From positions 831,167 to 895,166 of the forward strand of contig AP026144.1 in the NCBI GenBank assembly GCA_030295235.1: a stretch of DNA of 64,000 nt. The letters run 5' to 3'. A program made the position numbers and the translations under genes. The stretch is from Fistulifera solaris (Eukaryota; Bacillariophyta; Bacillariophyceae; Naviculales; Stauroneidaceae). The notes beneath the pieces are model-generated. The model had not been told where the DNA came from. It ran no database searches and was given only the letters and a program-made list of their open reading frames with translations. Below are positions 5,484-64,000 of the stretch, one piece after another (positions within the stretch are counted from its first letter, which is position 1; every line of letters begins with the position of its first letter).

Positions 5484-6933
5484 ATGCTACAATCATCTTT
5501 ACAACGATGGGCGTACGAAATCAGTCACAATTTCAATGTCGGTACGTTCGAAGAATCACAGATGTCCTTATTTGATTCATTAATAAAAAATAAATCATCC
5601 TCCTCTTCGTTTTACCTTTCTCACTTTCTTCGTCGACAACTCTAGAACAACTACTCCAAGAACAAGAAGATCGTGTGCAACAATTGGAATATAATCTACA
5701 ACAGCAACAGCAACAACTACAACAGCAACAACTACCATTCAAACATCGACTAGCGTCATTTCTCGAAATCGAACAAGAACAGCAACGAAAAATGGAAAGC
5801 ATCATTCTGTTGTTGACACAACAACAACGAGCCGTAATGCAGAAAGAAACTACTACTTCTACGACGACGACGACAACCAGCAATCCTCTAACATTATCAC
5901 GACCCAAACCGTGTCCCGAATCACTCCTCTATGATTCCGTATTGCAAGATCAAAAGTTACAGCAAAAGAATAAGGAAGAGAAGGAAAATCATCGACATCA
6001 ACATCGACATAAACACCGAAAGAGTAGTACTACAAAGTCATTCAAGACGCCATCGAAACAGGAAATAAAGACGACAGTAACAAAAAGGAGACTTCAAAGA
6101 ACACCAATGGCAGGGAAGAAGAAACAAAAGAGAATAGTGGTATAAAAACGACTCGGGAGGAAAGTACACTGCCGACTCGATCATCGACTGTGGACACGAA
6201 ACGAGCTTCATCAATCCAAGTGGCGTTGCAACAATTGGATGAATCCATGGCTTCACTCTTATTAACAAATCGATCGTCCTTGGTGGAACATCAACATTCG
6301 AAACAACAACAACAGCACAGTGCGGCTTCGCGTACATCATCCACGCAATCATCATCATCATCATCGACATCGGAGGAGGCACCATCGACCGTTGTGGCGT
6401 CTCGCTGGAATGTGACCGAAGATGATTCGGCCCTCTATTGTCCTACCCTAGTGCCCGGTCATCAAAGCCAACCAAATGGTTCGGCAGTCCGACGACCTTC
6501 CAACATTCAAGTGGTGGAGGAGGATGAACGTAACCATGGGCTGGACCTCCAATTGACGATCGATGAAGAAGACGATGACGATGATTATGACCACTTGCAA
6601 CTATTGACCACGTGTGATTTGGATCAAAAGTATCATCTCGAACCCGACGTGTCAAAGCCACACGGCTTTCGTGTCGTACCCAACGATAGTACGACGACTC
6701 CCAGGAATCAGACCACAACGGTCGCATGCACAAAAAGTACCGTCAAAACGACTAATTATCATCCGCCGACAACGACACATTCGAATGGATCGGCTCGCCA
6801 GACGACAGAACAACTTTCGTCCAATACACCGATGCGTTTGTTGCAACACGAAATGCAACAACACCATTCGGATGCTACGCTGTTGCTGCATCAAACTATA
6901 TCATCTTCGCAGTTTCATTCTCACAACAGTCAT

Positions 6934-6965
<32 letters not shown>

Positions 6966-7329
6966 CGACGACGACGACGAGAATGCTTCACAAAGTACGC
7001 AGCATTCGTCGAGCACTTCGAACAACAATTGTTCGTTGTTTCAAGATACGTCGCAAGATCACACTCGATTGCCTCTCATTACGGAACAAGAATATAGTGC
7101 CGCACCCCGAATTGTACAAATGCAAATGAGTTGGGATGACATGAATCAAGCCATTGAAAAATGGAATCAAACCAATGTGGTGACGCCCATTCCGTATGAA
7201 GATGCCTTGGAAATATGGAACAGCGACGCGACACCGAATCGCGTCGTTTTAATGAGTTTGTGTCATTTTCGACGACTGTGGTTGAAATCGCAAGAGGATG
7301 GAAAAATGTGGTTTGATGTTTGTTTGTGA
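5484..7329 (+). CDS. Orphan Gln-, Ser/Thr- and Asp-rich protein, one intron, one probable frame error
   Basis: Exon 1 is 5484-5541 (MLQSSLQRWAYEISHNFNV) and ends at a GTACGT donor. The intron 5542-5645 (104 nt) ends in CTCTAG, and exon 2 joins in phase as V-EQLLQEQEDRVQQLEYN. Gln-rich coiled coil follows, then a basic His/Lys/Arg stretch. That frame stops at 6143, but a neighbouring frame is open from 6028 to 7329. A single missing base between about 6028 and 6143 would join them into one protein of about 600 aa. The second part has an Asp/Glu run near 6935-6980 and a better-ordered C-terminus (MNQAIEKWNQ, LMSLCHFRRLWLKSQEDG). No known domain. The halves could be separate genes, but the second has no good ATG. 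Confidence 0.55.
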
Positions 7330-19186: not shown

Positions 19187-20017
19187 ATGCATCCCTCCCA
19201 ACGACGCTCGCCGTCACCGAAACGTCGTGCGCAGCGACCGCAACAACAGGACGTCTCGACAGACTCGACGGTGTCGAGCTGTATCAGTTACAGCGAAGAA
19301 GGCACGGGAAGTTTCCACAGTGATCGAAGGAAGTGTGTGCGCTTTAGCACCGTTTCGACGCACTGGATTCAATGTGATAAGACCACAACCGTCGAATCGG
19401 TCGATCATCACGAGATTCGCAAATCCGCCATGGCTCTGGAACGTATCATCGGAGCTCTCAAAATCGAAGAATATCAACGAATGGCATCCTCGACACGGAA
19501 ACCGAAAGTAAAAGTTGAATCCAAAGAGACGACGACACAGCAACCCCGACGGATTCGCGTGGCGACGCGATCTCCTCCCGAACACAGCAATCGCCGCCGC
19601 ATTCTCGTCCGGGCATCATCTCTTTCGATATTGCCTACCGAAAAACGCACGCGCAGTCCGTCTCCGCTACGTCGCGCTGTATCTCCCCTTCGCCGTGCGG
19701 CATCCCCGCTCCGCCGGTTCCGAAACGCGGACGAAAAGGAAAATACGAAGACGACCAGCAGCATTCATAAAAGCAACAGTCACACAGAATGCCGCAACAG
19801 CAAAAACAGCAGCAACGTAGGTAGCCGCAAGAGCAAAAAGAGCAGCAGTAGTAACACTGATAGCCGCAATACCAAAAGCACAAAACACAGCATCAGCAGC
19901 AGTATCGATAACAACGACAAGGATACAGGTCCCGGTTTCCGATTTTTACGAACGGATTCCTTTTCTCGATTAGGGCGTTCGATGAGATCGCCGCGAAAGA
20001 AACGAGTAGATCCTTAG
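19187..20017 (+). CDS. Orphan Ser/Arg-rich basic protein with VRFSTV motif
   Basis: 276 aa from the ATG at 19187 (MHPSQRRSPSPKRRAQRP). The N-terminal third contains RKCVRFSTVSTHWIQCDK and a helical stretch HHEIRKSAMALERIIGALKI. The rest is Ser/Arg/Lys/Asn-rich, with three repeats of the type SPLRRAxSPLRR near residues 160-180 and a C-terminal RFLRTDSFSRLGRSMRSP. The many SP and RxxS sites suggest a phosphorylated, possibly nuclear protein. The V-x-F-x-x-V core resembles motifs in the genes at 21364 and 30980. Family not recognised. Confidence 0.65.
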   Translation: MHPSQRRSPSPKRRAQRPQQQDVSTDSTVSSCISYSEEGTGSFHSDRRKCVRFSTVSTHWIQCDKTTTVESVDHHEIRKSAMALERIIGALKIEEYQRMASSTRKPKVKVESKETTTQQPRRIRVATRSPPEHSNRRRILVRASSLSILPTEKRTRSPSPLRRAVSPLRRAASPLRRFRNADEKENTKTTSSIHKSNSHTECRNSKNSSNVGSRKSKKSSSSNTDSRNTKSTKHSISSSIDNNDKDTGPGFRFLRTDSFSRLGRSMRSPRKKRVDP

Positions 20018-25747: not shown

Positions 25748-26673
25748 ATGTGTATGGATGCATTGCGAATGAACTCAGACGATGATTTATTTATCAATCG
25801 TGAAAATGCACATTACCCTGAAAGACTCACAACATTGCCAACAACGCAACAAAGCTATACAACTTCTCGATTAACAATCAGTGTAGCGGAGACTAAAACA
25901 ATGATATCGACGTCTCCATTTTCCTGGGAGAGGTTACGAACGAATGCAAATACGAATCATCAGCAAAGCAATAGGGCTCGCGAACCCCTCAACGACACTC
26001 CAATGCGCAACAGCGCTGATGCAGGATTCTGCACCGGCAAGATCCAATCCTTACGTACCCGATCGTATCCCGAATCTCCTCGTCACAAAGCGTCGTTGAT
26101 GAAACTTTCATCGCAGAATTCATCGTCCTTGACCAGAGTACTGCAAGAAAAAGCGAAGGCGCGAGTCGGATTGCGCAATCCGCCCCATATCATTTATCGA
26201 GCACTGCAAGAACACAAGTTAAAAATGGTGAATACTTTAAACGATACACAGAATAACAATCAAGCGGAATACTTGCAACAGCTTCGGCAACAGCTCCATT
26301 CGATCGAGGAGGAGTTGAAAAAATATTGGTTGAAGATCAACAACAATCTCAATCGGATACAGCCACAATAGCAGGAGAAGATTCACAAAGAGCTGCCCCG
26401 AGACGACGGAACAGTATAGGTCGCTGTACCAATATTGCGCACGAAATTGAATCCATTCGTCACGCATTATTGTACGATTTTACGTCTCAACAGCAGCAGC
26501 AAGAACAGCAACAACGGCAACGAAGGAATCGGCGCAACCGCCAGCATACGTTTCCGGTTCCCTTATCAATTCCGGAAGGAGAAGAGGAGCATTGTTTGTG
26601 GTCCTCGTGTCCTTCTCTTGTGTATGAACCAGAACCCCGTGATTTGCCGCCCAAATTACCGACGCGTCGATAA
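25748..26673 (+). CDS. Orphan Gln/Asn/Ser-rich protein, one frame error
   Basis: The first frame (25748-26371) gives MCMDALRMNSDDDLFINREN and onward, with a basic conserved-looking middle (LTRVLQEKAKARVGLRNPPH, IIYRALQEHKLKMVN) and a coiled-coil-like stretch LQQLRQQLHSIEEELKK. At the A6 run 26318-26323 one more A restores the frame to ILVEDQQQSQSDTATIAGED and a C-terminus ending RDLPPKLPTRR at 26673. The joined product is about 308 aa and contains RRRNSIGRCTNIAHEIESIR and a Gln/Arg-rich stretch. No enzyme motif; it could be a regulatory or cytoskeleton-associated protein. Function unknown. Confidence 0.6.
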
Positions 26674-34753: not shown

Positions 34754-37269
34754 ATGAAATGGCTTATTGTATGGTGTAGTAGTTGTTGTTTCCTCTTAGG
34801 GACGCAACACACTGTGCTAGCGCAAACTTCGGGTGGTGCTACTTTGGATTTTGCGCCTCCTACGGCCAACACTTCCCAGACAGGAGGAGAAGTCCTAGAT
34901 TTAGAAGATGATGTCTTCAACAACATAACAAATATGACGACTCCTTCGACCGCTCCTTTGAGTTCTCCGAATGCGACAGAAACACCGCCGGCTACATCGC
35001 CGACAACAACACCTTCTACAGAAGCAGAAGCCGACGAAACAGAACCAACGAATGCACCTTCAACGGCGTTTGTGAATGTTTCGCATCCCAACGCCGGGGG
35101 CATGACCAATACAGATGGAGAAACCTTTGAAGGCATGACATTACGTGAATTGATCATTTCAAGGGAAGAATTGACCCTGTTTCGAGACTTTTTAGATCAA
35201 GCTGGATTGCTTGAAACAATCTTGGATGATACGACACAACAATTGACTATCTTTGCACCCGACAATCACGCCATGGAGAACAATCGCAACATTCAACTCT
35301 ACAGTACAGGGCTCGACGAATCACCGCCACGATGGTATCACACCATCTTGTCGACTTGCCAAAATCACATGGCCGAAAGTCAAATACTCAATTTCGATCA
35401 AATCTTTGATCAAGTGCGGACCGAAATCACATCCATGCATGATACGTGGCCTGTCAGTCAATTCACACTCCAAGTGGGTGGCGTCGAAATGGAAACGGCC
35501 AATTTGGTAGCATCGAACGGGATATTGCACGTCACACGTGGAGTCATTGCTCCTCAATTCTATTCCCAAACCTTTGCGCAACTCGAATTGCAAGAAGAAT
35601 TCGGTCCCGATCATTTGAATCGTATCAGTATGGTGGATGTTGTCGATAACATTCCCGGAGCCCGACAATTGTTGGCGACGTCCCGTGATACGGGTTTGAC
35701 CTACGCCGGTTGTCGCATCCGTGCGTTCAATCGAATGGGTCTCGATTATTTGCCCCAAACCATCAATGGTGGACAATTCGTCAAGGAAAATGAACTCATG
35801 AATGCCTCCTTTGCCGAACAATCCCTTCACAACTTTGTCGAATATCAACTCATTCCACACAATTACTATCTGCCAGACATTGAGGAAAATTTTGAACAGT
35901 TGGTGATGCCAATCAACAAATGCAGTCATATTTGGATCACCAACCGGGTCGGCAAATTGTGTTTCAATGATGCCTGCATTGTCCGTACGCCTGATCCGCG
36001 CTGGTTCCTCGCCAGCAACGGTGTTGGATACGTCTTGGACAAGTGCATTATTTGTTCCGGCATTGCCATGTTGACCGATTATGCCGCCGAATATTCCAGT
36101 CTCAATACCAAAGACGCGGCGCAATTGTTTTGGGGTACCGAATGGAATTTGCGCAATTTGAGTTTATCGGTGGGAGATGGTGGTCCTTTGACCATGTTTG
36201 CGTCCATCAATACCGGCTTTAACTTTTTCACCTTGGAAGATACGACGCGGTTAAGTACCGACAAGTGGCGTCGGCATTTGTGGGATTTGGCATCGCATTT
36301 CTTGACGCAAGGCAAATATACCCGCGATCATTTGATCAATATCACCAAATCCAATGGCGGGGCATGGAATTTGACCATGTTGACGGGTGAGAATGTAACG
36401 ATTGATTTTGATGAAAGCAGGAATATGGTGCTAGTCGATGGTGGTGATTTGTTTATGCATGACATGCAAGGACAAGATGGGTACGTTTTTTTTTCTTTTA
36501 TGTCGTGCTCGTATTGGTTTTTCTTTGAAATGGTGCAATACAACATTCACTAACACATCCATAAACCTCGTATTTCGTATTCAGATTATTGCATTTTACC
36601 ACTGAAGTACCAAAGCCACGATCCGTGACAAAGAACTGCTTCACAATTGTCGAAGACGATCCAGATGAAAGGTTCAGATTGCATTTAGGATATTTGACGT
36701 CTCTCTTTTTAGAAGAAGACGTCAAACGGTTGCTACCTCTCACGGTCTTTTATGCCCCGAACGAAGCCTGGGAAGGAAAGATGGTTGATTTGATGGAGTT
36801 GTCGGAAACGGTTCTGGAAAACATGATCTTCAAAGAACTTTTGTGGTGTGAACTTTTGGTCGAAATGGCCAACAGCGGTCAACCCATTGAAAGCCACAAT
36901 GGTCAACTCTGGAATGTAGTGGTGAACGAAGAGGGTTTCCCTTGCATCAAAACAATACAACAATTGAATGAAACCCATTCCATGGATGCTTGCATCACAA
37001 AATGTGACATTCTGGCACGCAATGGTATTGTTCACGAAATTGATTCGCTTATTGTGTATCAAAGCTTGGATACACTCGCTCCATTCCCACCGGTGGCGCC
37101 CTTTGCCCCGTCAGCTCCATCGCCGCTTTTCGAACAACCCATCCAGCGTGACAACATAACAGCTCCTACTTTGGCACCCAGTTCGGCAGCGTGGCGAACA
37201 ACAACGTCGTCGTCGTCGTGGGGATTGGTATCGTCTCTACTTGCCGCTATGTTGTGCTATTTCCTCTAG
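34754..37269 (+). CDS. Secreted, probably GPI-anchored fasciclin (FAS1) repeat protein
   Basis: Exon 1 34754-36480, intron 36481-36584 (GTACGT..TTCAG), exon 2 36585-37269; 803 aa. Signal peptide MKWLIVWCSSCCFLLGTQHT, then a Thr/Pro/Glu-rich linker. FAS1-like units follow: LFRDFLDQAGLLETILDD with LTIFAPDNHAM and LHVTRGVIAPQ; a second around MVDVVDNIPGARQLLATSRD; a third with GPLTMFASINTGF; and a fourth with SLFLEEDVKRLLPLTVFYAP and ARNGIVHEIDSLIVYQ. The protein ends in a Pro-rich stalk, a Ser/Thr patch and a hydrophobic tail (WGLVSSLLAAMLCYFL), the pattern of a GPI-attachment signal. FAS1 proteins act in cell adhesion and extracellular matrix. The start was moved from an upstream ATG (34643) because the signal peptide begins here. 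Confidence 0.85.
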
Positions 37270-43947: not shown

Positions 43948-44878
43948 TCACTTCCCAGTCAAAGTCTTGCAGCATTCGTTTTCACAATCAGGTGTAGGCG
44001 GGGATATCGCTTTCGCGTTTTTGACACAACACGTCGTTGCGCAACAGTAGCAACTACCACAAGAATGCAAACATTCCGAATGTTTCAACAACAGGATTTC
44101 AATCTCTTCCAGATCACTCGATCGAAAGATCCAGTACATCACATACCACACCAAAAGGAGCATTCCCCAAAAAGCCCCATAGAAAGCTTTGAACCATCGT
44201 GCTGTACACTTTTGATGCTGAAGCATGGTTGCAATGTCTTGCCAGTGGTGCAAGGCTCGACTACAAGAAGGATGGACGTTTTGTTCGATCCATGCGGTTT
44301 GCAAACAATCACTGGGAAAGGTTGTAGATACTAACGGATAGGACTGACTCTCAATGAAATCTTCCGTCAAGTGACGGCGACTGGTTGCTGTGCGAAGATA
44401 TTGTGGTTCAGCAGACGAAGTGGTACTAGGAACTGAACTTGTTGGTGATATCGCTGAGTCGGGTATATTGCGTTTTTCAATGCTGGAATCCATCAATTGA
44501 ATCATGTGAGGTGCACTGTCTCGTTCTAAAGACAAAGTTAAAGTCCAGGCATCCATTTGCGGCGTTGATACCGTGTGTGACGGCTCGGATGAGGAGACTG
44601 ATTCGCATAGTTCCCGCTCATCTCGAAGACACAGATCGTGCGCCGCTACGTACGCCGCCTCCACATCTTCTAAAGCTCTATTCCAGTAGTCGTTCAGCAC
44701 TTGATCTGTGAAAATGATTCCATAGACATTGTGGATTATTCAAGTTATTGAGAATCGAGTGGAAAGCATTGCAAACAGGTATATATTTTTTTTGTTTCTT
44801 ACATTTTCGAATGACCGAGACACAGCACGCAATCGTCAAAAGAAAAGTGAGAAATGACTGAAGCTTTGTCATTCTCAT
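43948..44878 (-). CDS. Signal peptide, single TM, short Cys-rich tail protein (smaller paralog)
   Basis: Exon 1 44878-44803 encodes a signal peptide (MRMTKLQSFLTFLLTIACCV). The intron 44802-44706 has a GTAAGA donor and TCACAG acceptor; exon 2 is 44705-43948; 277 aa in total. The ectodomain has VEAAYVAAHDLCLRDERELC and a Ser/Thr-rich middle, then RRHLTEDF, CLQTAWIEQNVHPSCSRALH, a TM helix (FYGAFWGMLLLVWYVMYWIF) and a tail with about 11 Cys (SECLHSCGSCYCCATTCC, CENECCKTL). The same order, the same intron phase and the motifs LTE, C-x-x-A-W-x-E-Q and P-x-C-S-R-A-L are shared with the larger gene at 46646-47937. The two are paralogs; function unknown. Confidence 0.8.
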
Positions 44879-45344
44879 TATCTTTCAGAGATACACAACG
44901 TATTTGTTTTATCAACTACAATGCATCGATCGTTTTCTACTGTAGTTATTGCATGGTCTCGCCATGACAAATGAGAATCCATAAAGCTCTTTTTTCATCA
45001 TCTCTCCCCGTGATCCTTTTTCTTCAAAAACTCGTGCAAATGAATGTCAAAATATCAATGCCGCTGTTCGACGGTGTTCTTTGTCGTACTCAAAAGTTTA
45101 CAGTCTTTTTCACATGCGTCGCTGTCTGTGTTCCAACGAACAATCTTACCGGTTCCAAATATTTTATCTGGCGAATATCCACTCATGACTGGAAAGCAGT
45201 CATGAAGAAAGGTCGCCGACATTATTTATTTGGGTTTACCAGTAGAGCAAATTTAAAAGATAACAATTTTTACAAGACTTTTCGACCGTGAAGAGTCGAT
45301 GCGTGAAGTTCAAATGCTATTGTTAATACTTGGGTCGGATATAA
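44879..45344. other. Intergenic
   Basis: Upstream of the smaller cysteine-tail gene. A 106-codon plus-strand ORF (44971-45291) has no domain and was not called. Confidence 0.35.
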
Positions 45345-45611
45345 AAATACTTATCATTAGTTGACAAGCTTGCAGAACGAGCAGAGTTCAACTACCGTAT
45401 CAGTCGAGCTCTGGGAGAATGCGCTTGGCGAGACTTGAAGCGCACCGCTTTCCTGCTGACCAGCTACACTGACTCCTTGAACGAGTTGGTTCAGTCAGCA
45501 GTCCTTGGTGTCACAGAACTCACTGATGAACATGATAACAAGTTGTCGGTTGATTCTTGTGAGCGATCCTCTCGGTTGAAACGTATTAGAACGAATTATG
45601 ACAGAGAATAG
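45345..45611 (+). pseudogene. ATG-less coding-like fragment
   Basis: An 88-codon open frame without a start codon. It reads DKLAERAEFNYRISRALGEC, AWRDLKRTAFLLTSYTDSLN, ELVQSAVLGVTELTDEHDNK and so on to a TAG. The residue mix (balanced, Leu/Ala/Glu-rich) looks like real protein rather than noise. It could be an exon of an unseen gene (an AG lies just inside, at 45359-45360) or the remnant of a lost gene. No family recognised. Confidence 0.35.
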
Positions 45612-45984
45612 GATCTCTAATTCAGTCGCGAATTCGGTCAGAGTCCTTCGTGGCTCTGGTAAACGCTTGGCTTGGAATCACCAGTAAAACCAAACAGCCA
45701 GATAACGAAGCATGACTCTTCTATGCGTTGTTGTTGACGATGTTGTTGAATGAATCTAGGCTACATATTCTCCGTTTTTAAATTTCACCAGTTTGATTGG
45801 TAGTGGACTTTTCTCCTACTAAATCGAGTTCAATCCCGAGTTAAACTGCTAAACTTGTCGAAAAAAATTGTCAAAGAGAAAACATTGTAGACTACTACTG
45901 GATAAAATGAATTTTGGATATACATATATTCACTTATAGAAATAAACTTGAGATCCTCGTCTGTCTCTCTGATTGATTACCACT

Positions 45985-46144
45985 TTACGAGCTACTAATG
46001 TGCGTTTTGCAACAAGGACACTCGGAGCAGCAGTTGCAATCACCCGAGCGACTGTTATCGTTTTTACAGCAGTGACAGTTGTCACCGCACTTGCAATCAG
46101 GGGGAGCCACATGGGCAACGAGTTGTAGGCGCGGAGGAAGTCAT
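45985..46144 (-). CDS. Metallothionein, frame broken by one base in a G-run
   Basis: ATG at 46144 reads MTSSAPTTRCPCGSP and then hits TGA. Dropping one base of the G5 run at 46100-46104 gives a 52-aa protein that continues DCKCGDNCHCCKNDNSRSGD and CNCCSECPCCKTHISSS, ending at TAA 45985. It has 13 Cys, arranged CPC, CKC, CHCC, CNCC and CPCC: the CxC/CC clusters that define metallothioneins, with no aromatic residues. Metallothioneins bind Cu(I), Zn(II) and Cd(II) in the cytosol and buffer or detoxify them. It lies between two membrane proteins with Cys-rich tails. Because the Cys pattern survives perfectly past the break, a sequence error is more likely than decay. Confidence 0.85.
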
Positions 46145-46645
46145 GATCGCGGATCGATCTGTCTTGATTCTTTAAGAAAACGGGACATGAAAAAATGAGA
46201 AAAGCAGTGTAACGATCAAACGGCAAAGACAAACACAACAAGAAGAAACTTTTGACGCTTAATTCACAGAACAACCTCTTCCTATGAGATTCGTACCTCC
46301 TCGTTTGTGAGAGGAGAATGAAAGTAGGATGCAAAGTTTTGAACGTAAGGTCGTGTTCTCATGGTTCACGCTTCGGAAAAGAGATTACGGCGAAATCCAT
46401 AGAAGAAACCATTTACGATAGAGCTAAATGGTCTTCCTTAAAAGGTGAACTCGTCCGATGAGTGATCCTGCATAACCGATGGTAAAGAAATACTTGTTAA
46501 AGAGTGACTTTTTAAGTGTACGTGACCCAAAAGAGGATTCACAGTCAGAACCACAAGGTAAATCAATTTTTTGACACACGGGCATAATGTAGAATATTGA
46601 GTAATAGGCGATGATTCCTCAATCGTCATCTTCCCGAACAGACAA
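46145..46645. other. Intergenic, likely metallothionein promoter
   Basis: 500 bp between the metallothionein start and the end of the larger cysteine-tail gene, both minus strand. Should contain the metallothionein promoter. No metal-response element was identified by eye. Confidence 0.4.
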
Positions 46646-47937
46646 TTATACGACAAGTATGCGAATCGGCATTTCGTCACTATTCGCAATGGGCAGATTG
46701 GAAGTGGAGGAACATCCACCACCACAGCAAGAAGCACAAGCTGCACTACAAAGGCCCGTGCCCTTGCAACAATTGCAGCAACTTTCTTCCAGCGTTGGAT
46801 TGTTGGAAGAAGTCTTGCAGCAGCAGCAAACACAAATATCGGTACCCTGCGCATCGCGGTTGCTCGCATGTTTACGCTCCGAGCAGCAGCAGCAGCATGT
46901 GCCGGAGCAGCAACCATCACTGCAGCAGCAGCAATCTTGAAAGAAGCACTTGTTTTCGTGGCAGCAACCATTTCCACCGCAGCATCCACCTGCGCTGCAG
47001 CAACATTTTCCGGAGCAACATCCACCTGAATTGCAACAACCATCTCCACTGCAGCAACATTTGTTACCGGAGCAGCAGCCGTTACTCGAGCAGCATTTAT
47101 CGCAGCACGAGCAGCAAGAACAAGCGTCTCTTGTCGGAACCAATCGTTTCATGATTCGATAGAGCATCCATACGGCGTAGGCAAACCACATGGCACAAAC
47201 AAATACCAGCACTGTTTGACACATCCATTTATGCAAATTTTGCATTTCCCGTGCGTTCTGCAAATGAGTTAAGGCTCTGCTACACTCGGGACGCACACCT
47301 TGTTCCATCCAAGCCAAGTACAAGCAGATATCCGGGAAGGGGGATGACGACTTGTGCGTGCAGGGAGACAACTCTTCTGTCAAACGACGGTGGCGCATAG
47401 TCTCGCTGCGCAGTTGAGGATCTTGTATCTTTGAGACAACATCCGAAGGCGATGCTTGGGTAGGCAATGGGTGATCTTGGGCTTGTTCGTCTTGGTTATG
47501 ATTCTCCTGAAGTCGATTGTCATGAATCCAAATCCAAGTGGTCGTAGAACCCACAAAGTGCGGAATACTTTCGGCTTCCTGAGATACCCACAAAAAGGTC
47601 ATCAAAAGATTCGCTTCTTTCATAAGGAACGAAAGTTCGGGGGTATTGTAGTAACGCGGAGATTCACAGAATCGCCATTGATCCAGCTGACACTGTTCCT
47701 GGGCCATCTGATACGCCACGGCGACGTTTTTCTGCGTCATGTTCCACGACTTTTTCATTTCATGTACTAATTGCGTTTATGAGGGAGAATATAGGGTGAA
47801 AGATTGAACAAAACGTAGACCAGACAGAGTGTCAGTCTACCACATCTTGTGACACGCTAGATCTTCAACATTTTATTTTGCTTACATTGATAAATGTTCG
47901 CCAAGAGAACGATCGCCAAGCCGTACATTTGCTTCAT
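46646..47937 (-). CDS. Signal peptide, single TM, extremely Cys-rich tail protein (larger paralog)
   Basis: Exon 1 47937-47886 (MKQMYGLAIVLLANIYQ, signal peptide), intron 47885-47767 (GTAAGC donor, ATTAG acceptor), exon 2 47766-46646; 390 aa. The ectodomain includes VAVAYQMAQEQCQLDQWRFC, HRRLTEELSPC and LAWMEQGVRPECSRALTHLQ. One TM helix (CQTVLVFVCAMWFAYAVWML) is followed by a basic stop-transfer RIMKRLVPTR. The last about 145 residues have roughly 49 Cys, nearly all in CC to CCCCC runs spaced by Gly/Ser/Asn (SCCDKCCSSNGCC, CCSDGCCSGTCCCCC). By topology the tail is cytosolic. It looks like a membrane-tethered metallothionein-like sink; palmitoylation of many Cys is the alternative. A paralog lies at 43948-44878 with a metallothionein between them. 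Confidence 0.85.
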
Positions 47938-48478: not shown

Positions 48479-49579
48479 ATGACAAGATATCTGATAGTTT
48501 GGGCAGCTTTCGTGGCAACGACGTCGTATGCCTTTGTTACGAGAATCGACTCGACTTTCTCATCGATGCGTTTGCATTCGTCGCCACAATCGCAACCCGA
48601 TGGCCGTTCAGCCGTCAGTTACAATGCTCTGAATAATATGCCTCCTCCTCTTCCTCCTGGGTTTGCGCCGCCCGGTGGAGAACTAGCTCGTCCTCCTCAG
48701 CAGCAGCCGTGGCAACCTCCTCAAGAACAACAAGTGTGGCAACAACAAGCTCCTCCACAACGAGCCGGTCCTCTCAATCCAGATGACAACTGGAGACGTC
48801 CTCTTCAGGTCGACAATTATCAATACCGTACCGTTCAAGGAAATAGTCGAAAAACTTTCAATACGATGGGAGGTCGCAATGAGGTCGAATTTTCAACGGA
48901 TGGACGTGAGCTTTATACCGACATGGAAGTGTGGCAGGGCCCTGACAACACACCGCAAACAATGAAGTGGTATGCTCAGGATGGAAATCATCGCATTCGT
49001 GCGACGGTGACGTCCACTCAATACCATTCCATCGAAACTAGAAACAGGGGAACGCTCGAATTCCCCATGAATGTACAGATGCAACCACAGGCACCCGGTT
49101 CTCCAACGAAACAACAACACCAACCCTTCCACGGCACTAATTCCGTTCCTGCTGTCGAATTTCGTCCCATCCCAAGTCACGAAGATCGCATGGCGAAACG
49201 CGATCCCAGTCGCGGCACGACCATTCAAGGAGATGGCAGTGTCAAAACGTACCCGATTGACCCCTACACTTCCAGTGTCCAAGTATTGCTCGACGGGCAG
49301 GGATTTCCAGTATATGCCCGTATTGAGTTGTTGCAAGGTCCAGATTGTGTCAAAATATTGGGTGAATTGTACAACGATGGCTTGCAAAATGGCGGTGAAC
49401 CGGTCCGGACGGTTTTGGAAACACCCGGATACGGCAGTACACTTCGTGTGGTCAACACGGGACCGATGGAATATCCCATCATTTGCACCGTCGCCCCAGC
49501 TTCGTATGGTGAACCAGTGAACAATTATCAGCAACAGCAGAGTGTTTTCGATTCGAATGGACGGTATATTGGGTACTGA
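48479..49579 (+). CDS. Plastid-targeted protein of unknown function
   Basis: 366 aa, single exon. The N-terminus MTRYLIVWAAFVATTSYAFV is a signal peptide with a predicted cleavage SYA|F, matching the diatom plastid rule of Phe at +1, then a Ser/Arg-containing transit region (TRIDSTFSSMRLHSS). A Pro/Gln-rich stretch (residues 55-100) precedes a conserved-looking core: YRTVQGNSRKTFNTMGGRNE, VWQGPDNTPQTMKWYAQDGN, TLEFPMNVQMQ, then SSVQVLLDGQGFPVYARIEL, LLQGPDCVKILGELYNDG and RVVNTGPMEYPIICTVAP. Two parallel WQGPDN / LQGPDC units suggest an internal duplication of a beta-rich domain. Function unknown; location in the plastid is an inference from the presequence. Confidence 0.75.
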   Translation: MTRYLIVWAAFVATTSYAFVTRIDSTFSSMRLHSSPQSQPDGRSAVSYNALNNMPPPLPPGFAPPGGELARPPQQQPWQPPQEQQVWQQQAPPQRAGPLNPDDNWRRPLQVDNYQYRTVQGNSRKTFNTMGGRNEVEFSTDGRELYTDMEVWQGPDNTPQTMKWYAQDGNHRIRATVTSTQYHSIETRNRGTLEFPMNVQMQPQAPGSPTKQQHQPFHGTNSVPAVEFRPIPSHEDRMAKRDPSRGTTIQGDGSVKTYPIDPYTSSVQVLLDGQGFPVYARIELLQGPDCVKILGELYNDGLQNGGEPVRTVLETPGYGSTLRVVNTGPMEYPIICTVAPASYGEPVNNYQQQQSVFDSNGRYIGY

Positions 49580-49979: not shown

Positions 49980-51398
49980 ATGCGACATTACAGGTGCTTT
50001 TTAGGTTGTCTGCTGCTTCTTTTGCAGCAAAAAGCACAAGGGGAGGTCATTCGACAATCGGCACATCGGAAAATACAAGCAACAATCGACGCCACAACAG
50101 GCGATCTTACTGTTCTTGCTGGAACGGACTTTTGCTGTTCGAATGGTCTTCGTACAGCAACTTCGTCGACCAGCGCGGCCGCGAAGAATCGTCGGAAGTT
50201 GAATACTCAACCGCATATTGGATGGACCGATCCGGGTGATTGGGTGGCTTACCCAGTAGAAATAACTTCGGCCGGTACGTATCATGTTCACTTTCATGTA
50301 TCCAGTCCATTTGGTGATGGAGGATTTGAGTTGATGGATTTACAAACGCAACAGTTATACGGCACCGTGGATACCATGCCCGTGACTACGACCTGGGACA
50401 CGTTTGAAACTATTTCTCTGCCCGTCACATTGCCGGCCGGTCTCGTTTCGTTGCAAGTACGACTTTTATCAGCAGGTTGGAATCTGTTGTGGCTGGCGGT
50501 AAGCAACGAGGATAGTGTCGGAAGCATTCCGGGTGTAATTGTACCCCCACCGTCGCCGGCTATAATTGTATCTCCTGATGCCACTGTCACACCCTCATTA
50601 CCCGCTGTGAGTAACCCAGCTACATTGTCCGTAGCTCCAAGTGTGACAGTGGCACTCGATGAGATTACGTCTTTTCCGTCCCTGAGCAGTTCCTCTTCAG
50701 GAACAATCATCCCAACCCCAAATAATGCAACGTCTCCGGTTGTTCCAATGCCGACACCGAATACAAGTGTCACATCTTTGATTCCTTCCACGCCGGTTAA
50801 CGCCCCTGTTCCTACAGGTTCGGCAACAGTTCCGTCACCTCTAGCCAATGCTCCAATTTTATCGCCCTTGGCTACCCCGACTTCCACACTGCCCAGCGTT
50901 CCAGCCTCTAAACCAACACACAACAAACGCCCGTTCTTACACGAGTTTATAACGTTTGAAGATTTTACGCGCACATCTCCCAATATTGTATGGCAAACGA
51001 GTGAAACGGAACAACGCACGCAAGCTGTTGAGTTAAAGACAGGCGATTGGTTGGAATTTCAGTTGGCAATCCCTGTGGCCGGGCCGTATCAAGTACACGT
51101 TCGCACGTCGAGTCCTAGTGGAGAAGGCTCGTTTGAGCTGGTACACGTCGAGATAGACGAATTAAATAAACGCGAAACGGAAGTTCCTTTGGGCATATTT
51201 TCGGGATTCCCCACAACTGGTTCGTGGGAAGTGTACCTTCGAATGGAACAAGAAATAAATTTACCAGCCTCACCTTTAAACATTGGCCTGTTGATGCGCA
51301 TCAATGTATTGGAGCCAGGATTCAGTCTATCGTGGCTCTACGTGGAACCTAGTGATTTATGGGACGCAATTGATGCTAGAGACGATGGAAATGTTTGA
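49980..51398 (+). CDS. Secreted protein with two CBM6-like carbohydrate-binding modules
   Basis: 472 aa. Signal peptide MRHYRCFLGCLLLLLQQKAQ. Module 1 (about residues 65-180) has GWTDPGDWVAYPVEITSAG, YHVHFHVSSPFGDGGFELMD and SLQVRLLSAGWNLLWLAVSN, the pattern of CBM family 6. A Pro/Thr/Ser-rich linker with PTPN/PVNAPVPT repeats follows (180-315). Module 2 (about 320-460) has KTGDWLEFQLAIPVAGPYQV, RTSSPSGEGSFELVHVE and RINVLEPGFSLSWLYVEPSD. No catalytic domain is seen, so it is likely a cell-wall, frustule or mucilage polysaccharide-binding protein. The last part of the gene is included in a 385-bp tandem duplication, leaving a promoterless copy of the 3' end just downstream. Confidence 0.85.
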   Translation: MRHYRCFLGCLLLLLQQKAQGEVIRQSAHRKIQATIDATTGDLTVLAGTDFCCSNGLRTATSSTSAAAKNRRKLNTQPHIGWTDPGDWVAYPVEITSAGTYHVHFHVSSPFGDGGFELMDLQTQQLYGTVDTMPVTTTWDTFETISLPVTLPAGLVSLQVRLLSAGWNLLWLAVSNEDSVGSIPGVIVPPPSPAIIVSPDATVTPSLPAVSNPATLSVAPSVTVALDEITSFPSLSSSSSGTIIPTPNNATSPVVPMPTPNTSVTSLIPSTPVNAPVPTGSATVPSPLANAPILSPLATPTSTLPSVPASKPTHNKRPFLHEFITFEDFTRTSPNIVWQTSETEQRTQAVELKTGDWLEFQLAIPVAGPYQVHVRTSSPSGEGSFELVHVEIDELNKRETEVPLGIFSGFPTTGSWEVYLRMEQEINLPASPLNIGLLMRINVLEPGFSLSWLYVEPSDLWDAIDARDDGNV

Positions 51399-52847: not shown

Positions 52848-54440
52848 ATGTACCGATCACTTCTGATTGGTTTATTCTTGACGTTAGCCTCTCAAGCATC
52901 TGCGGAATGCGACGGCACTTGTACGCCCGACGGCGAAGCCTGTCAAGTCGACGGAAAGCCGTGCTGCGAAACGGGAAGCTCCTGTTACGGATTCAACTTT
53001 TACAAGAAATGTCAAACCCCACCTTTGTGCTTACGCGAATGGTATGACTGCACGAGTGGAATGGCGGGTAACGTGCCGTGCTGTGAAGGCATGGAATGCG
53101 TTTTGGGTGACGGCGAGCAATACGAGTGTCAACACATTTACGAGCCTATTGCTGTAGAAGGCTTTGCGACTACTCCCGTTGCTCCTGTGGCCCCTGTTAC
53201 TGCTCCCGTGACACCTGTCTCTGCTCCGGTTGCTCCTGTTGCTCCGTTAACCGAAGCGGCCGTGATTAAGCCATGGTCGCCTGCCGATGAAGGCTATTTG
53301 TTCTTTGCCAACATGACCAACGCGGGTGTACAAGATCCTACTGCCCCCAATTATCAAGTTGCTGCCAAAGCGTACATCAAAGCGGATTGTGCGGGTCCTC
53401 ACTTGTGCATTTACGTCATGGCAGAGCCCGGTGTGGCTCTTTCGTCGACAGAAGGGTGGTTCAAAGACTATACCTATTCTACTGCTTCTATTCCCTTTGT
53501 CGCACCCGGATTGACCTACCGCGAAGAGAATGGAGTGATTGTAGGATGGTCCGGTTGCGTGACTGTTCCTTTCGATAAAGGTGCAACCGGATTGGGTGTC
53601 GAAATCCACGCCAATTGGGGACTAAAAGGTTCCAATTCACTCGGCAACACGGCTTCCACCGGCAAATCGGGAACCACTTTGGTCACAATGGACTATCCTG
53701 TGTGCTTGAAACCGGCCTTTGTGGAAGGTGAAACCGCACCCGTGGCAACCGCTCCTCAAGCGACACCGGTGGCCGCTCCCAGCGCCCCAACACCCACGGC
53801 GGCGGGTGCCCTCGGAACCGCACCTACTCCTGTGACTTCGCCTGTCACAGCGCCCATTCCGTCACCGGTTGCCGCACCGGTCCCTGTTACAGCAGCCAGT
53901 CTCACAGATAAAGGCTGGACTCCACTCTTCAGCATGTACAACGCCGGAAACCCTGACACAAAAAGTTCCAACTACCAGTTGGCGGGCAAAGCGTGGTACA
54001 AGTACGACTGTGCGGCGCGATTGATTTGCTGGTTGGTAATGGCCGAGCCTGGCTTGGAAATTTCCGGAACGGAAGCATGGTTCAAGGATTATGGTCGTGG
54101 TAACAGTGCGATAGAAGCGGTCGCTCCCGGTATCACCTTCAAGATGACCAACAATGTCCGCACGGGCTGGACTGGATGCTTCTATGAGCCCCTCGGCGCA
54201 ACGGGGTCCATTGAAGTTCACGCTAATTACGGAGTCGCCGGCAGCGGAAAACTCGGCAACACCATGTCGACCGGTAAATCGAATACTTTGGGCGGATACG
54301 CCACGATCGACTACGATCACCATTGCGTTGGATTAGCTCCCACTTGTGCGGCAGCCGGTGCTAAATGCAACGGAAGTATGCCCTACTGCAACGGACGAAC
54401 CTGCCCGACCTCCGGAAACAAAGTGTGTCCGAGCAAATAA
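52848..54440 (+). CDS. Secreted two-repeat protein with PVAP linkers and Cys-rich ends
   Basis: 530 aa. Signal peptide MYRSLLIGLFLTLASQASA. An N-terminal Cys module (residues 20-95; CCETGSSCYGFNFYKKCQTP, LREWYDCTSG, CCEGMECVLG) is shared with the gene at 59054-62012. A Pro/Val/Ala linker (PVAPVAPVTAPVTPVSAPVA) leads to repeat 1 (about 135-285: YLFFANMTNAGVQDPTAPNY, STEGWFKDYTY, VEIHANWGLKGSNSLGN), a second linker, and repeat 2 (about 345-480: SMYNAGNPDTKSSNYQLAGK, GTEAWFKDYGRGNS, IEVHANYGVAGSGKLGN). The C-terminus is a short Cys cluster (CAAAGAKCNGSMPYCNGRTC). The two repeats clearly arose by internal duplication; their fold was not recognised. Likely extracellular matrix, cell wall or adhesive mucilage. 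Confidence 0.8.
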   Translation: MYRSLLIGLFLTLASQASAECDGTCTPDGEACQVDGKPCCETGSSCYGFNFYKKCQTPPLCLREWYDCTSGMAGNVPCCEGMECVLGDGEQYECQHIYEPIAVEGFATTPVAPVAPVTAPVTPVSAPVAPVAPLTEAAVIKPWSPADEGYLFFANMTNAGVQDPTAPNYQVAAKAYIKADCAGPHLCIYVMAEPGVALSSTEGWFKDYTYSTASIPFVAPGLTYREENGVIVGWSGCVTVPFDKGATGLGVEIHANWGLKGSNSLGNTASTGKSGTTLVTMDYPVCLKPAFVEGETAPVATAPQATPVAAPSAPTPTAAGALGTAPTPVTSPVTAPIPSPVAAPVPVTAASLTDKGWTPLFSMYNAGNPDTKSSNYQLAGKAWYKYDCAARLICWLVMAEPGLEISGTEAWFKDYGRGNSAIEAVAPGITFKMTNNVRTGWTGCFYEPLGATGSIEVHANYGVAGSGKLGNTMSTGKSNTLGGYATIDYDHHCVGLAPTCAAAGAKCNGSMPYCNGRTCPTSGNKVCPSK

Positions 54441-59053: not shown

Positions 59054-62012
59054 TTACTTAGGACGGCACTGACCGTTGGTGCACACATCCTTTGTCGTGT
59101 CACAGCAGGGCATCGTACTACTGCAAGCATTCCACTGAGGAGCACACGATGGTTGGCACTGTCCGTTCTTGCAAGCAAAGCGACTGCTGTTGCAGCAACC
59201 GGCACCCGCCGAGCAAGGCTGCCAGTCGTTGGCGCAAGAAGTCACTGTAGGCTTGCACTGACCACCTTGGCAACTGTAATTCTTTGAGCAGCAACCCTTT
59301 GTGCTACTGCACGAGTTCCAATCAAAGGCACAGTTCGGCTGACAGGTTCCATTCGTGCACGCGTAACCACTGTTGCAGCAACCAAGTGTCGAAGTACAGG
59401 GCTGCCAATCATTTCCGCACGTGGGTTTCGGTTTGCAAGTTCCACTTTGGCACGTGTACGAAGTATCACAGCAACCGAGTTCCGAAGTGCACTGCTGCCA
59501 GTTGCCACCACACGTCGGCTTGGGCTTGCAAATGCCTCCTTGGCACGTGTGAGTGCTGTCGCAGCACGGTTGATCGGCACTGCATTGACCCCAGTTGCTT
59601 GCGCAAGCGGCCTGGCACTGAGAAGTGGTGTATCCCCTGACTGTCGGTGAACGAAAGCGCATTTCAACGGCTTGGGACCATCTTGGCAACACCCAACATA
59701 CGCACAGCTTTGCCATTCGTTGACACACTTGGGAAGTTTGCGACCACGAACTGCGTCCGTGCACTTTCGGTGACGCCGCGTCAAACCATCACAGCATTTG
59801 AAGTCGGCACTGCAAACTTGCCATTCATGGGCTTGGCACGTAGGGACGTTACGGCCGCGTCTTGCGCTGCGAGTGAACATCGGTGGCGCATTTGAGGCCA
59901 TTGCAACAATCTACTCCGAGACTGCAGTCTTGCCATTCGGGCATGCACGTGGGAAGATTCACGGCATTGCGGCGATCCATCGGGAAGCTCGACACACTTC
60001 AAGCCATTGCAGCAGCCGACATCTTTGCACGAACGCCATTCGGGGCATGCAAGTAGGAAGATCCATGCAAGTTTTGGGCCCCCAAGGTTGTTGGACGCAT
60101 TTTAATTTTCCACAGCAGGGAGTAAGAGTACCACAGTTGGCCCATTCACCGACACATTGTTGTTCATTGATTACACATTCCTTGGCGAAACCGTTGACTT
60201 GAGCACATTTGAGACCACTGCAGCAACTCGAAACGTCGCATTCACCGCCCTTTCCATTGCATGTCGTCGCCACGGCTTTGCGACTCTCGATCGTACTCGC
60301 TGCAGCTTCCACTCCCATTAAACGAGCATCAATGATGCACAAGAGTTCGTTCTTGCAAAGTTCTTTAATCTTCGGATCGACATCGAGGAGATATTGGTCC
60401 ACAGTGCTACCGTGCGGCAAGTTGCAATGCATGATATCTTCAAACCAGTCCAAACCGAGTTCCTTGTGCGCAAAGAGGGAGTCGGCTTGTTCGCGAATAC
60501 ACCAATGGGTGGTACAGTACTCGTAGCCAGCCCAACGCAATCGGTCCGTTAACGACGTCGGAACCGGCAACAATTCACCATCTCGTGTCTTCCAATCGTT
60601 TGAGGTGTCGCCATCTGCCGAACCGAACATACCAGTAGTCTTGTCGACATCCGGAACATGCGTGCAAACTTCAAAATAGCAACCATTGGCGTAAGCGACG
60701 TTGGCGGTGACTTTGAATTGCGACGCCGTGTAAAGAATTTCGACAGTTTTACGTGTCCAAGTGACCTTGACCTTGGGAGAACCGGAACCATCGTTCAAAT
60801 CGCGCTGAACGCCATCGACATAGAACAAAACTTTGCAGCTCTCTTGTCCAATGGTGTTGGGCGCGAAAGAATCGGGAAAGATGGGAAAGGAAAGCTCAAC
60901 CTTGGGCGTATCACCTTCATCTTGAGTGACAAAACCCTTAACGACCGCCCATGCCCTGTAGAGATAAGAATTAGCAAGGAATGTTAGACGACTATAGTTT
61001 CAATGACAAGCAGTTGACTCCAAAACTCCACCGCCCTTTCGACCTACCATCCTGGACTGAAAATATCGGCAAAGAATGCAAAACGACCTTGGACTTCACG
61101 CTGCGTGATGGTCGATTTCATCAAAGTGAACTCTCCTTCGGCTCTGATGGATAACAAGTCGGAGTGAGGTCAGATTCAAGTCAAATTTCGCCAAATTTTC
61201 GCCCACAAAGAGATCCACTTACTGGCAATCATAAGCTAACGGTGGGTTGAAAGTAAAAAGTTTGGTGTGAGGAAAGTTGGTGGAATAAGATAATGAGAGA
61301 TATCACGAAAAAACTGCAAGGCAAACCCAAAGCAAAACAGCACATTCAGCAACCAAACCCAAACCCCGCGATTTTTTCTCACCAAGACCATCGAAACTGG
61401 AAAGGAGGTGGTGTGAGATAATGAGAAATAGAGATATCCGAACGGAAAAACGAAGCAAAAAATCACCTGTATATATGCGGATCACCGACCGCACACGCGG
61501 TCTTCGTTTTGACTGCTGCTCCAGGAATAGCCGTCGTCTTCAAGTTTGGTCCGGTGGGTGGCAAGGTCGGAGCCGCCGTAGGAATTTTGACCGGAGCGAC
61601 AGGAGCCGCAACGGGAGCGGCCACAGGAGTCGGCACAGGAGCTGGTACAGGAACCGGAACAGGAACCGCAACTGGAGCACTCGTTGAAATGAGATCGGCC
61701 CCCGTCAGATTGGTTTGGAGGGTGCGAACTTGGCATTCGCTCACACCACCTTCTGTAACGGCACAGACGAGATCTCCACAGCAGGGCATTGAATTGCTGC
61801 AATCGTACCATTCAGCGAGACACGCCGGAGGAGTGCGGCAACGCTTGAAAAAGTTGTATCCGAAGCAACCAAGACCATCGCAGCAACCGTCTAGGTTGTG
61901 CGTGCATCCTATCATTCTCGGCGATGCAAGTGCTTTCCGCGCATTCTTCCGCAGCTGTAAAGGAAACAACAACAGCTAAGAACAGAAAATACAAAGATCT
62001 TTCGATCTGCAT
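59054..62012 (-). CDS. Large secreted GDPH-motif (vWD-like) protein with Cys-rich repeats; micro-exons and several frame errors
   Basis: Exon 1 62012-61467: signal peptide (MQIERSLYFLFLAVVVSFTA), a Cys module (CFGYNFFKRCRTPP, LAEWYDCSNSMPCC) and a Pro/Val/Ala linker; an extra A at 61915-61916 breaks the frame. It ends in AVGDPHIY. Exon 2 is 61396-61383 (14 nt) and exon 3 is 61235-61223 (13 nt); with exon 4 (61143-61048) they read SFDGLAYDCQAEGEFTLMKS. Exon 5, 60955-59054, holds the rest of the vWD-like domain (FYVDGVQRDLNDGSG, TTGMFGSADGDTSNDWKTRD), about five repeats of C-x-x-EW-x-x-C..CC-x-G-LKC, then six repeats of C-x3-W-x-x-C..CC..C-x-x-G-x-C. At least five more one-base shifts lie in exon 5 (for example G4 at 60042-60045). 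GDPH proteins occur in diatom adhesive trails, so mucilage or adhesion is the likely role. Confidence 0.75.
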
Positions 62013-63119
62013 GATGAGAGAATGTTTCTTTTGTGTAGTTCTTCTCTCTTTCGTCGAGGAAAACAATGTAAAACAAAAAAAGAGATGAAAAGTCTTGGCG
62101 TTTTTGTTTGCCGCAAAGTCTTGGTCTGCGGTCTGCGGTTTCCCCACTGTTCCAGCTAGTGTACTCATGACTTTAGACTGTGATTGTGGGTGTGGATTTC
62201 GATTAGTGAAAACGGTGAAACGTTGACCTTTGGGCCTTTTTATATCAGTGAGGTACAAAGAAAAACTCAGTAAGAACCACCGGAGTCCCCACCCATGTCC
62301 ATTCATCATTTCCAAAATAGAAAAAAAAATGAGGTAAAAAAATTGATTAGTGATTCATTTTAGCAGAGTCGTACGGAAACACAATAGAAGCTTCACAATT
62401 TGCCAACAACTTGTGAAGCCGACATTTCTCAGTTACCAGGTATCAATATCAGAAAGGATGGTATGCGTCACCAACAAATCATTATGCCTGTGTAGGCATG
62501 CTACTTTTGATGCATGTGGCCACATTACAGAAGCAAAGGAGAGGAAGTCGGTTTGGGAAACAAACCATAAGCAGGACTTCGACGCTCAGTTGAGGATGTT
62601 TATCATCAGCTCGGTGATTACTATTTTAGCGGCGCTTATAGAATGACATTTGTGTCATTTGTTAAGCTTACAATCAATTGAAGCCTCACATTGAATTTTC
62701 TATCAACCCGGGAAGAGGGGAAAGGTTGGGTCCAGTATCACAAGTACATTAGGTACCAAAAAAGCAAACGTCCTCAGTCTTGGTGACTGGGTTTCCTCTA
62801 ACCACTTAGTAAGCCTTCGTTTTTGACCAGTGATTGGGCTTTTCAGGCTTTCCGAGGGATCTTGGCGGCGGCCTGCGACTTCATTCGCGCCCAACATTGC
62901 TGTGTTAGGTGTAATGTTGCGTTTACCAAGTTCGAAGACAAAGAGTTTTAAGAGGATCTGTATCGAGGGACAATAATGGCTGCCCTTCAACACAAATACC
63001 AATCGAAAAAACCCACAGGAATTCCAATGAATGTTGAGGAACTGGGGTGGAAGCAAATGGGGCGACTGGAAGCGGAATCTACGGCGCACTACCACTGCTG
63101 AGATTTCATGGTGCGTGCT
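62013..63119. other. Subtelomeric gene-poor region
   Basis: About 1.1 kb with only short ORFs (for example 62350-62646 plus and part of 62703-63233 minus) and no recognised domain. The left end includes the promoter of the GDPH gene. Confidence 0.4.
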
Positions 63120-63345
63120 CTTGAACGGACAGCTGGGTAGATGCGCCTTCATCAGAAGAATCGTCGGAATCAATACTCCCATGGTCTGCCAAGCGGCGAC
63201 TGCCTCGTCCATATCAGAGCTCTCGGCTCTCATTCTTGTGATGCGCTCGTCACCAACTGAGCCGGAATCATGCGGCTCTCGTGCTAGCGGATCAACAGGC
63301 AGGTTCCCTTCAGCAACCGCGTTGCAACAAGGGGGTATTATAGTT
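63120..63345 (-). pseudogene. Coding-like fragment near the telomere
   Basis: Read on the minus strand, one frame gives CCNAVAEGNLPVDPLAREPH and RITRMRAESSDMDEAVAAW. A neighbouring frame continues ADHGSIDSDDSSDEGASTQL and ends SVQEHAP before a stop near 63112. The acidic Ser-rich tail looks like a protein C-terminus. There is no start codon before the telomere, so the gene would be truncated by the chromosome end. Family not recognised; support is weak. Confidence 0.25.
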
Positions 63346-63531
63346 ACTCATGAGATTTTCTGATGGGAAAGACAGTGGAATAAAGAAAGTAATTATAGAA
63401 ATGGCAGATTTTGATATGCCGACGTTCAATAATTTGGGGAGAAAGGCGGAAAACGGTGCTACGGACGAACTCTGTTTTTTCAACTCGATTTTTTCCGAGT
63501 TTGCAACTCCATTTTTTTCTTGGCAAACTCG

Positions 63532-64000
63532 TTAGGGTTAGGGTTAGGGTTAGGGTTAGGGTTAGGGTAAGGGTTAGGGTTGGGGTAAGGGTTAGGGTTA
63601 GGGTTAGGGTTAGGGTTAGGGTTAGGGTTAGGGTTAGGGTTAGGGTTAGGGTTAGGGTTAGGGTTAGGGTTAGGGTTGGGGTTAGGGTTAGGGTTAGGGT
63701 TAGGGTTAGGGTTAGGGTTAGGGTTAGGGTTGGGGTTAGGGTTGGGGTTAGGGTTAGGGTTAGGGTTAGGGTTAGGGTTAGGGTTAGGGTTAGGGTTAGG
63801 GTTAGGGTTAGGGTTAGGGTTAGGGTTAGGGTTAGGGTTGGGGTTGGGGTTAGGGTTAGGGTTAGGGTTAGGGTTAGGGTTAGGGGTTAGGGTTAGGGTT
63901 GGGGTTAGGGTTAGAGGTTAGGGTTAGGGTTAGGGTTAGGGTTAGGGTTAGGGTTAGGGTTAGGGTTAGGGTTAGGGTTAGGTTAGGGTTAGAGGTTAGG
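63532..64000 (+). repeat. Telomere, (TTAGGG)n with variant units
   Basis: From 63532 to the window end the sequence is almost wholly TTAGGG units (about 78), G-rich strand 5' to 3' toward the right, as expected for a right chromosome end. Interspersed variants are TTGGGG (several, for example near 63578, 63677, 63730, 63741, 63838, 63844 and 63899), TAAGGG near the inner edge, one TTAGGGG, TTAGAGG (two) and one TTAGG. No subtelomeric repeat precedes the array. Confidence 0.98.

Follow-up and report, generated by a model that had tools for sequence, protein, structure and literature searches.

The 64-kb stretch of DNA analysed here (the window) is the terminal stretch of contig C22 of Fistulifera solaris, and we were concerned with three adjacent minus-strand genes in it: genes A and B, which encode predicted membrane proteins with cysteine (Cys)-rich tails, and a metallothionein-like (MT) gene that sits between them (Table 1). 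The limits set for this locus in a first-pass annotation, 43948..47937, proved exact, and its view that the outer genes encode paralogous membrane proteins was borne out. A and B are diverged paralogues: their introns coincide in place and phase (phase 1), they are about 30% identical (29-32%) from the N-terminus through the end of the membrane segment, each has one predicted span followed by a Cys-rich tail, and the ectodomain motifs C-x2-D-x4-C, R-x-L-T-E, A-W-x-E-Q and C-S-R-A-L are common to both. F. solaris is described as an allopolyploid in PMC5935921 and, as expected from this, a homoeologous copy of the locus is present on contig C21, with blocks of 80-87% nucleotide identity and with B, MT and A in the same order as on C22. 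There, the homoeologue of A is 399 aa long with a total of 60 Cys, and two of the shared motifs are looser (AWMKQ, RRECSRAL). An earlier start for gene A was considered and rejected, as C21 lacks a counterpart of the in-frame ATG found upstream in C22. Relative to the window, C21 carries a 1.7 kb insertion between the counterparts of B and MT (L007 ~5265 to 6997).

Table 1. Features of the A/MT/B locus (window coordinates)
Feature	Position	Strand	Details	Basis
Gene A	46646..47937	-	exon 1 47937-47886; intron 47885-47767 (119 nt, phase 1); exon 2 47766-46646; 390 aa, 56 Cys	spliced model; splice sites also usable in C21
R-x-L-T-E motif of A (RRLTE), possible diatom RXL processing site	47375..47389	-		alignment of seven sequences; processing putative
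Predicted transmembrane segment of A (residues 202-220)	47159..47215	-	hydropathy 1.93	Kyte-Doolittle
Cys-rich tail of A (residues 232-371)	46706..47125	-	49 Cys in 140
Distal module in the tail of A, with a homologue in the C13 tail	46724..46834	-	48-49% identity
Metallothionein-like gene, frame-broken	45985..46144	-	frame closed after 15 codons by TGA 46099-46097; rest of the Cys in +1 frame from 46098; break at C-run 46104-46100
Gene B	43948..44878	-	exon 1 44878-44803; intron 44802-44706 (97 nt, phase 1); exon 2 44705-43948; 277 aa, 17 Cys	spliced model
R-x-L-T-E motif of B (RHLTE)	44362..44376	-		family alignment
Predicted transmembrane segment of B (residues 201-219)	44125..44181	-	hydropathy 1.48	Kyte-Doolittle
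Cys-rich tail of B (residues 236-277)	43951..44076	-	10 Cys in 42

Both proteins begin with a hydrophobic N-terminus, and to that extent the signal peptide previously ascribed to each holds, as an assignment made from hydropathy only and with a short hydrophobic core in A. In the window copies of A and B a single hydrophobic span lies ahead of the tail, and in A this span is followed by RIMKR; in the C21 copy of B the span falls below the hydropathy cut-off of 1.3. Taken together, the hydrophobic N-terminus, the one predicted span and the RIMKR sequence after it in A indicate that the tails would probably face the cytosol. Six Cys of A lie ahead of the transmembrane (TM) segment. Modelling of the ectodomain plus TM of A and B with AlphaFold2 (two sequences) gave a mean pLDDT of 47.6 and a pTM of 0.27.

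The tail of A is metallothionein-like in composition. It is 35% Cys, with 26 CC and 4 CxC, contains 2 aromatic residues and 2 His, and its spacers are mainly S, G and N. When the homoeologues were compared, tail A had a nonsynonymous divergence (dN) of 0.128 and a synonymous divergence (dS) of 0.350 over 162 aligned codons (dN/dS ~0.37), and tail B had a dN of 0.151 and a dS of 0.524 over 59 codons. Alignment columns of tail A in which either homoeologue has a Cys were replaced between C22 and C21 in 3 of 48 cases versus 30 of 114 for the other columns (Fisher p 0.0028). By these substitutions, purifying selection acts on tail A, whose Cys are better conserved than the rest of its residues. 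The tail also has a homologous distal module in a family member on contig C13, to which it is 49% (C21 copy; E 3.9e-6) or 48% (C22 copy; E 5.5e-6) identical.

Cys density was compared with a control of 20 first-order resamples of the window, in which no 30 residues held more than 8 Cys. The densest 30-residue stretch holds 14 Cys in A and 11 in the MT frame, which exceeds the expectation from composition, while tail B in the window stays under 9. Seven stretches of the window have at least 9 Cys per 30 residues, and five of these belong to other frames (19758-19847 -, 5641-5730 -, 53153-53242 +, 34967-35056 - and 26490-26579 -). Because five of the seven dense stretches are in other frames and B stays under 9, Cys density alone is weak evidence, and the main support for the tails as sequences that matter is their apparent conservation between homoeologues.

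Searches of the F. solaris assembly (51.7 Mb, 61 contigs) with the ectodomains of A, B and the C13 member placed the family at seven sites: A and B on C22, A and B on C21, C13:597k, C14:575k and C14:469k. In an alignment of the seven sequences the invariant columns include C-x2-D-x4-C (both Cys and the Asp), a Pro, C-L, a Val and C-S-x-A-L, and R-x-L-T-E is present in five of the seven, both C14 copies being without it. The C13 member has its intron in the same place and phase as A and B and retains R-S-L-T-E, and at least two hydrophobic segments precede its tail. On sequence grounds it is a third branch that combines a different membrane part with a homologous tail module. C13:597k and C14:575k are positional homoeologues, as shown by 87-90% DNA identity in the flanks, yet at the protein level (L032 4500-5632, L038 3900-4909) identity is down to 31%, an unusually fast divergence for one gene. 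The first exon of C14:575k appears frame-broken by eye, and C14:469k (L033 4447-5508) has one in-frame TGA in the membrane region with the frame open on either side. The family thus appears small and fast-evolving, and the members that look sound are A and B, each in both subgenomes, and C13. A weak family-like match with two stops inside was seen at C3:543726-544100 (L056, E 0.0044), and another at C13:881341 (E 6.77) was discarded as a long frame in which inspection found no family motifs.

The first-pass annotation knew of no described family with this layout, a statement that is too strong. The plant type C G-gamma subunits (rice DEP1/GS3, Arabidopsis AGG3) are described as having a putative TM region and then a long Cys-rich C-terminal half, as in A and B. 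According to PMC6274817, rice DEP1 consists of a G-gamma domain, a short hydrophobic stretch and a C-terminal half rich in Cys, and by the account in PMC3808331 the fragment OsDEP1(170-426), with 88 Cys, was alone sufficient to confer Cd and Cu tolerance on yeast and Cd tolerance on Arabidopsis, the authors proposing that the Cys-rich half is a direct Cd trap. However, Pfam searches with A, B, the C13 member and the seven ectodomains gave no G-gamma match, and A and B instead have a hydrophobic N-terminus and a Cys-paired ectodomain. Hence the A/B family is at most DEP1-like in function and not a member of the DEP1 family. Given these Cd-trapping tailed plant proteins, metal-binding Cys tails that face the cytosol are an idea with a precedent and open to test.

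The reading we prefer, by analogy and with somewhat less than even confidence, is that the tails of the A/B family are tethered to a membrane, face the cytosol and act as sinks for soft metals, in the manner of the Cys tail of rice DEP1. The N-terminus would bring the protein into the secretory pathway, and the lumenal part with its conserved Cys pairs may be cut at R-x-L-T-E, as has been proposed for other diatom R-x-L proteins. The single TM helix, if the layout is of type I, would leave the long Cys-rich tail on the cytosolic face, where it could serve as a membrane-tethered thiol sink or buffer for the soft metals Cu(I), Cd and Zn.

Cys clusters placed after a TM helix could also be S-acylated for anchoring or sorting, with metal playing no part, but we consider it unlikely that this accounts for the tails. 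The first Cys of tail A, 13-23 residues from the helix, and the short tail of B with its few Cys would suit such a role. Those of tail A nevertheless extend to 149 residues past the helix, and 49 Cys over such a reach, separated by polar S/G/N spacers, exceed what membrane-near acylation needs. Moreover, the module shared with C13 begins 109 residues past the helix in A and 34 residues past the last hydrophobic segment in C13, distances that make the tails ill-suited to acylation at the bilayer. The recurrence of this module in a branch with a different membrane part would count for the metal-sink proposal.

Another explanation is that tail A is mainly the product of TGC-repeat expansion, the ectodomain being the working part, so that only the distal module would matter while the long run drifts. 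There is perhaps a modest chance that this is correct. The codon usage fits, with 38 of the 49 tail A Cys codons being TGC, as do the equally Cys-rich frames elsewhere in the window, the gain and loss of repeats between homoeologues and the fate of the tail in one C14 copy (see below). Drift is less easily squared with the low rate of replacement in the Cys columns of tail A and with its dN/dS.

A number of observations weigh against the tails being metal sinks. The length of tail A differs between the homoeologues through the gain and loss of repeats (22 gap columns). The tail of B has only 10 Cys and is without the distal module, and most tail Cys are gone from the C14:575k copy (C14b), which sits at the place homoeologous to that of C13. 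The tail of the C13 branch may lie on the same side as that of A only if the number of spans is odd, and at least two segments were seen. Tail A is rich in CC (26 CC, 4 CxC) whereas the MT protein is rich in CxC (3 CC, 5 CxC). Finally, the linkage of MT with the tailed proteins appears to be a single ancestral arrangement in which the MT gene is frame-broken.

If the tails do bind metal, they would constitute a membrane-tethered metallothionein family, so that metal would be buffered right at a secretory membrane, and the parallel with plant DEP1 would represent convergent evolution of the same device. No description of such a family in a diatom was found in the literature searched, and no diatom family of this layout was described among the matches listed, in a search that left most subscription journals outside. 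A 2020 review states that metallothioneins had until then been predicted in no diatom but Thalassiosira pseudonana, and on that account diatom buffering of Cu, Zn and Cd is poorly known. Genome editing is reported for F. solaris in PMC13276009, which would make the A/B family a small and knockable gene set.

The tails were also compared with soluble metallothioneins, which tail A resembles in its 35% Cys and few aromatic residues and from which it differs in being predicted to be membrane-tethered and in being dominated by CC. Among diatom proteins, pTF.CatCh1 and ISIP2b of Phaeodactylum tricornutum are described in PMC7972479 as an adjacent, paralogous, Cys-rich pair that is heterokont-restricted and proposed to handle iron. 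By the same account CatCh1 has a signal peptide and a C-terminal TM, so that both this and the adjacency of paralogues recall A and B. Its Cys (aa 34-226), however, precede the TM (296-315) and include CXC and CXXC, a description that sets it apart from A, in which most Cys come after the TM and residues 1-201 contain neither CxC nor CxxC.

Two further kinds of diatom protein, the silicalemma-associated proteins (SAPs; PMC5647440) and silicanin-1 (PMC5525289), are described as type I proteins with a signal peptide, R-x-L, one TM and a cytosolic C-terminus. To judge from hydropathy and a short motif, A and B, in which R-x-L-T-E is present, may have this layout too, which weakly suggests that they might be located at the silica vesicle. 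They might then be R-x-L-processed proteins of the silica-vesicle membrane (silicalemma), with the Cys tail a disulfide or protein-binding adaptor in wall formation, which we consider decidedly unlikely. The motif does occur in most of the aligned family sequences, but R-x-L is a short and common triplet, and A and B lack the serine-rich or NQ-rich regions of the described proteins and have a Cys-rich tail, a trait that does not figure in the descriptions of the SAPs or silicanin-1. The SAPs are reported to have a conserved cytoplasmic domain of 28 residues after the TM. For silicanin-1, PMC5525289 describes an NQ-rich lumenal domain with 18 conserved Cys; inspection of A found no NQ-rich region, and its Cys ahead of the TM number 6.

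Searches for known families were otherwise negative. Neither A, B and the C13 member nor the seven ectodomains had a significant Pfam match. Hits to CCSMST1 (E 0.11; 0.067 with the ectodomains) and to Auxin_canalis (two of the seven members, best E 0.012) were set aside as chance matches, far below the cut-off or unrelated in kind. The Pfam families CYSTM and PLAC8, known from plant metal-tolerance proteins, were not matched by A, B, C13 or MT. An origin of the ectodomain in the GLG1-type Cys-rich repeat (PF00839), which the pattern C-x2-D-x4-C...CL...CS-x-AL resembles, was dropped because there was no match at E up to 10; a search of the F. solaris genome for PF00839 was also without match, but so were its controls, so that it proves nothing.

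The gene between A and B had been read as a metallothionein of 52 residues with 13 Cys, but there is no such open frame in the window; two frames had been joined. Frame 0 from the ATG at 46144 closes at TGA 46099-46097 while the +1 frame (46098-45985) carries the rest of the Cys codons, and the 13-Cys protein requires a one-base shift at the C-run. The TGA after 15 codons excludes an intact 52-aa gene for the assembly as given, and no GT-AG pair that would restore the frame while sparing the Cys codons was seen by eye. Two further copies were found. In that on C21 the same C-run is likewise one base longer (six C), and the site reads CGA, not a stop. The copy on C40 (C40:75378-75533) is without the extra base, and its 52-aa frame, which holds 13 Cys, 5 CxC and 3 CC, is intact. 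It is the only intact one of the three and is metallothionein-like in its high Cys content, with CxC and CC, and few aromatics. All 13 Cys codons are nevertheless present in all three copies, split across two frames in the window copy.

Site patterns pair C21 with C40 in the 5' flank (83 sites versus 11 and 12), in the 3' flank (49 versus 16 and 25) and within the MT gene (10 versus 4 and 4). With C21 grouping with C40, the extra base either arose twice or is old and was lost in C40. To judge from the name Fsolaris_ONT_v03, the assembly is probably nanopore-based, and single-base breaks between the homoeologues are possibly residual nanopore indels. When the window was compared with C21:873000-962882, three single-base frame breaks had at least 90% protein identity on either side, and all three were deletions in C21, while some of the less-conserved breaks were insertions. 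We favour an assembly error or recent decay as the cause of the MT frame break, although an extra base that is an insertion and is common to both homoeologues speaks somewhat against a simple error.

If instead the extra base were real, the full 13-Cys protein could be produced through a +1 shift of the ribosome. CCC-UGA is a context that favours shifting, the extra base lies at the same C-run in both homoeologues, none of the three copies has lost any of the 13 Cys codons, and the well-conserved breaks indicate that insertion is not the usual error type here. Against this, the C40 copy is without the extra base, C21 has CGA and not a stop, insertions do occur among the less-conserved breaks, and programmed shifting is much rarer than an error of assembly or a recent decay. 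We therefore regard such shifting as very unlikely.

Short Cys-rich proteins often lack curated models, and the protein encoded on C40 matched no Pfam and no NCBIfam family at E up to 10. It had no significant match in PDB, the best (E 0.19) being a snake neurotoxin that shares the Cys pattern only. Viral contigs yielded no MT relative, as none of 28 pattern matches was confirmed.

On C22 and C21 alike, A and B flank the MT gene, and so the arrangement is older than the split of the subgenomes. To this extent the synteny of the three genes stands, but no linkage of MT with a tailed protein recurs elsewhere in the genome. In the 9.9 kb around C13:597k the gene's own tail is the only stretch with at least 9 Cys per 30 residues, there is none in the 9.9 kb around C14:469k or C14:575k, and around the C40 MT gene only MT itself reaches this density. 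Whole-genome searches likewise found no family member on C40, the contig of the intact MT gene, and independent linkage was accordingly rejected for C13, both places on C14 and C40. Within the 350 bp upstream of each of A, MT and B, compared in both subgenomes, no 7- or 8-mer is common to all; two distinct 6-mers (four counted on both strands) are shared, where random sequence gives 3.4 on average and 20 at most. The metal hand-over between MT and the tails that the first-pass annotation had suggested thus has no support beyond adjacency.

The most far-reaching reading would join all these elements into a diatom-specific family of secretory-membrane proteins processed at R-x-L, which might reside in the silica deposition vesicle or in a membrane that encloses the plastid. 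Their cytosolic tails would be metallothioneins in their own right and would cooperate with a soluble MT, whose production from the linked locus would depend on a real +1 shift at CCC-UGA / CCC-CGA conserved in both subgenomes. We think it highly improbable that the whole of this is correct.

The A/MT/B locus lies ~16-20 kb from the end of the contig, where the last 2 kb of the window (62000-64000) hold 65 copies of TTAGGG and the contig end looks like a chromosome end. Neither ARAGORN nor Rfam at its gathering thresholds detected an RNA gene in the window. In the gap between MT and gene B (45182-45499), two short stretches resemble C8 (70%) and C37 (84%) and represent a dispersed repeat or gene fragment. 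At 48479-49576 + lies a gene for a pyrenoid shell protein of the diatom type (PF25192, E 3.8e-49), divergent from gene A with ~540 bp between the two start codons; like the silicon-transporter genes present in the genome it agrees with a diatom source. The protein encoded at 49980-51395 + carries carbohydrate-binding modules (CBM_6 in two stretches, E 4.7e-22). A further frame at 61466-61975 - is 94% identical to C21 across 148 aa; its match to a knottin-type model lies below the cut-off (19.1 versus 26.8 bits) and is probably due to chance.

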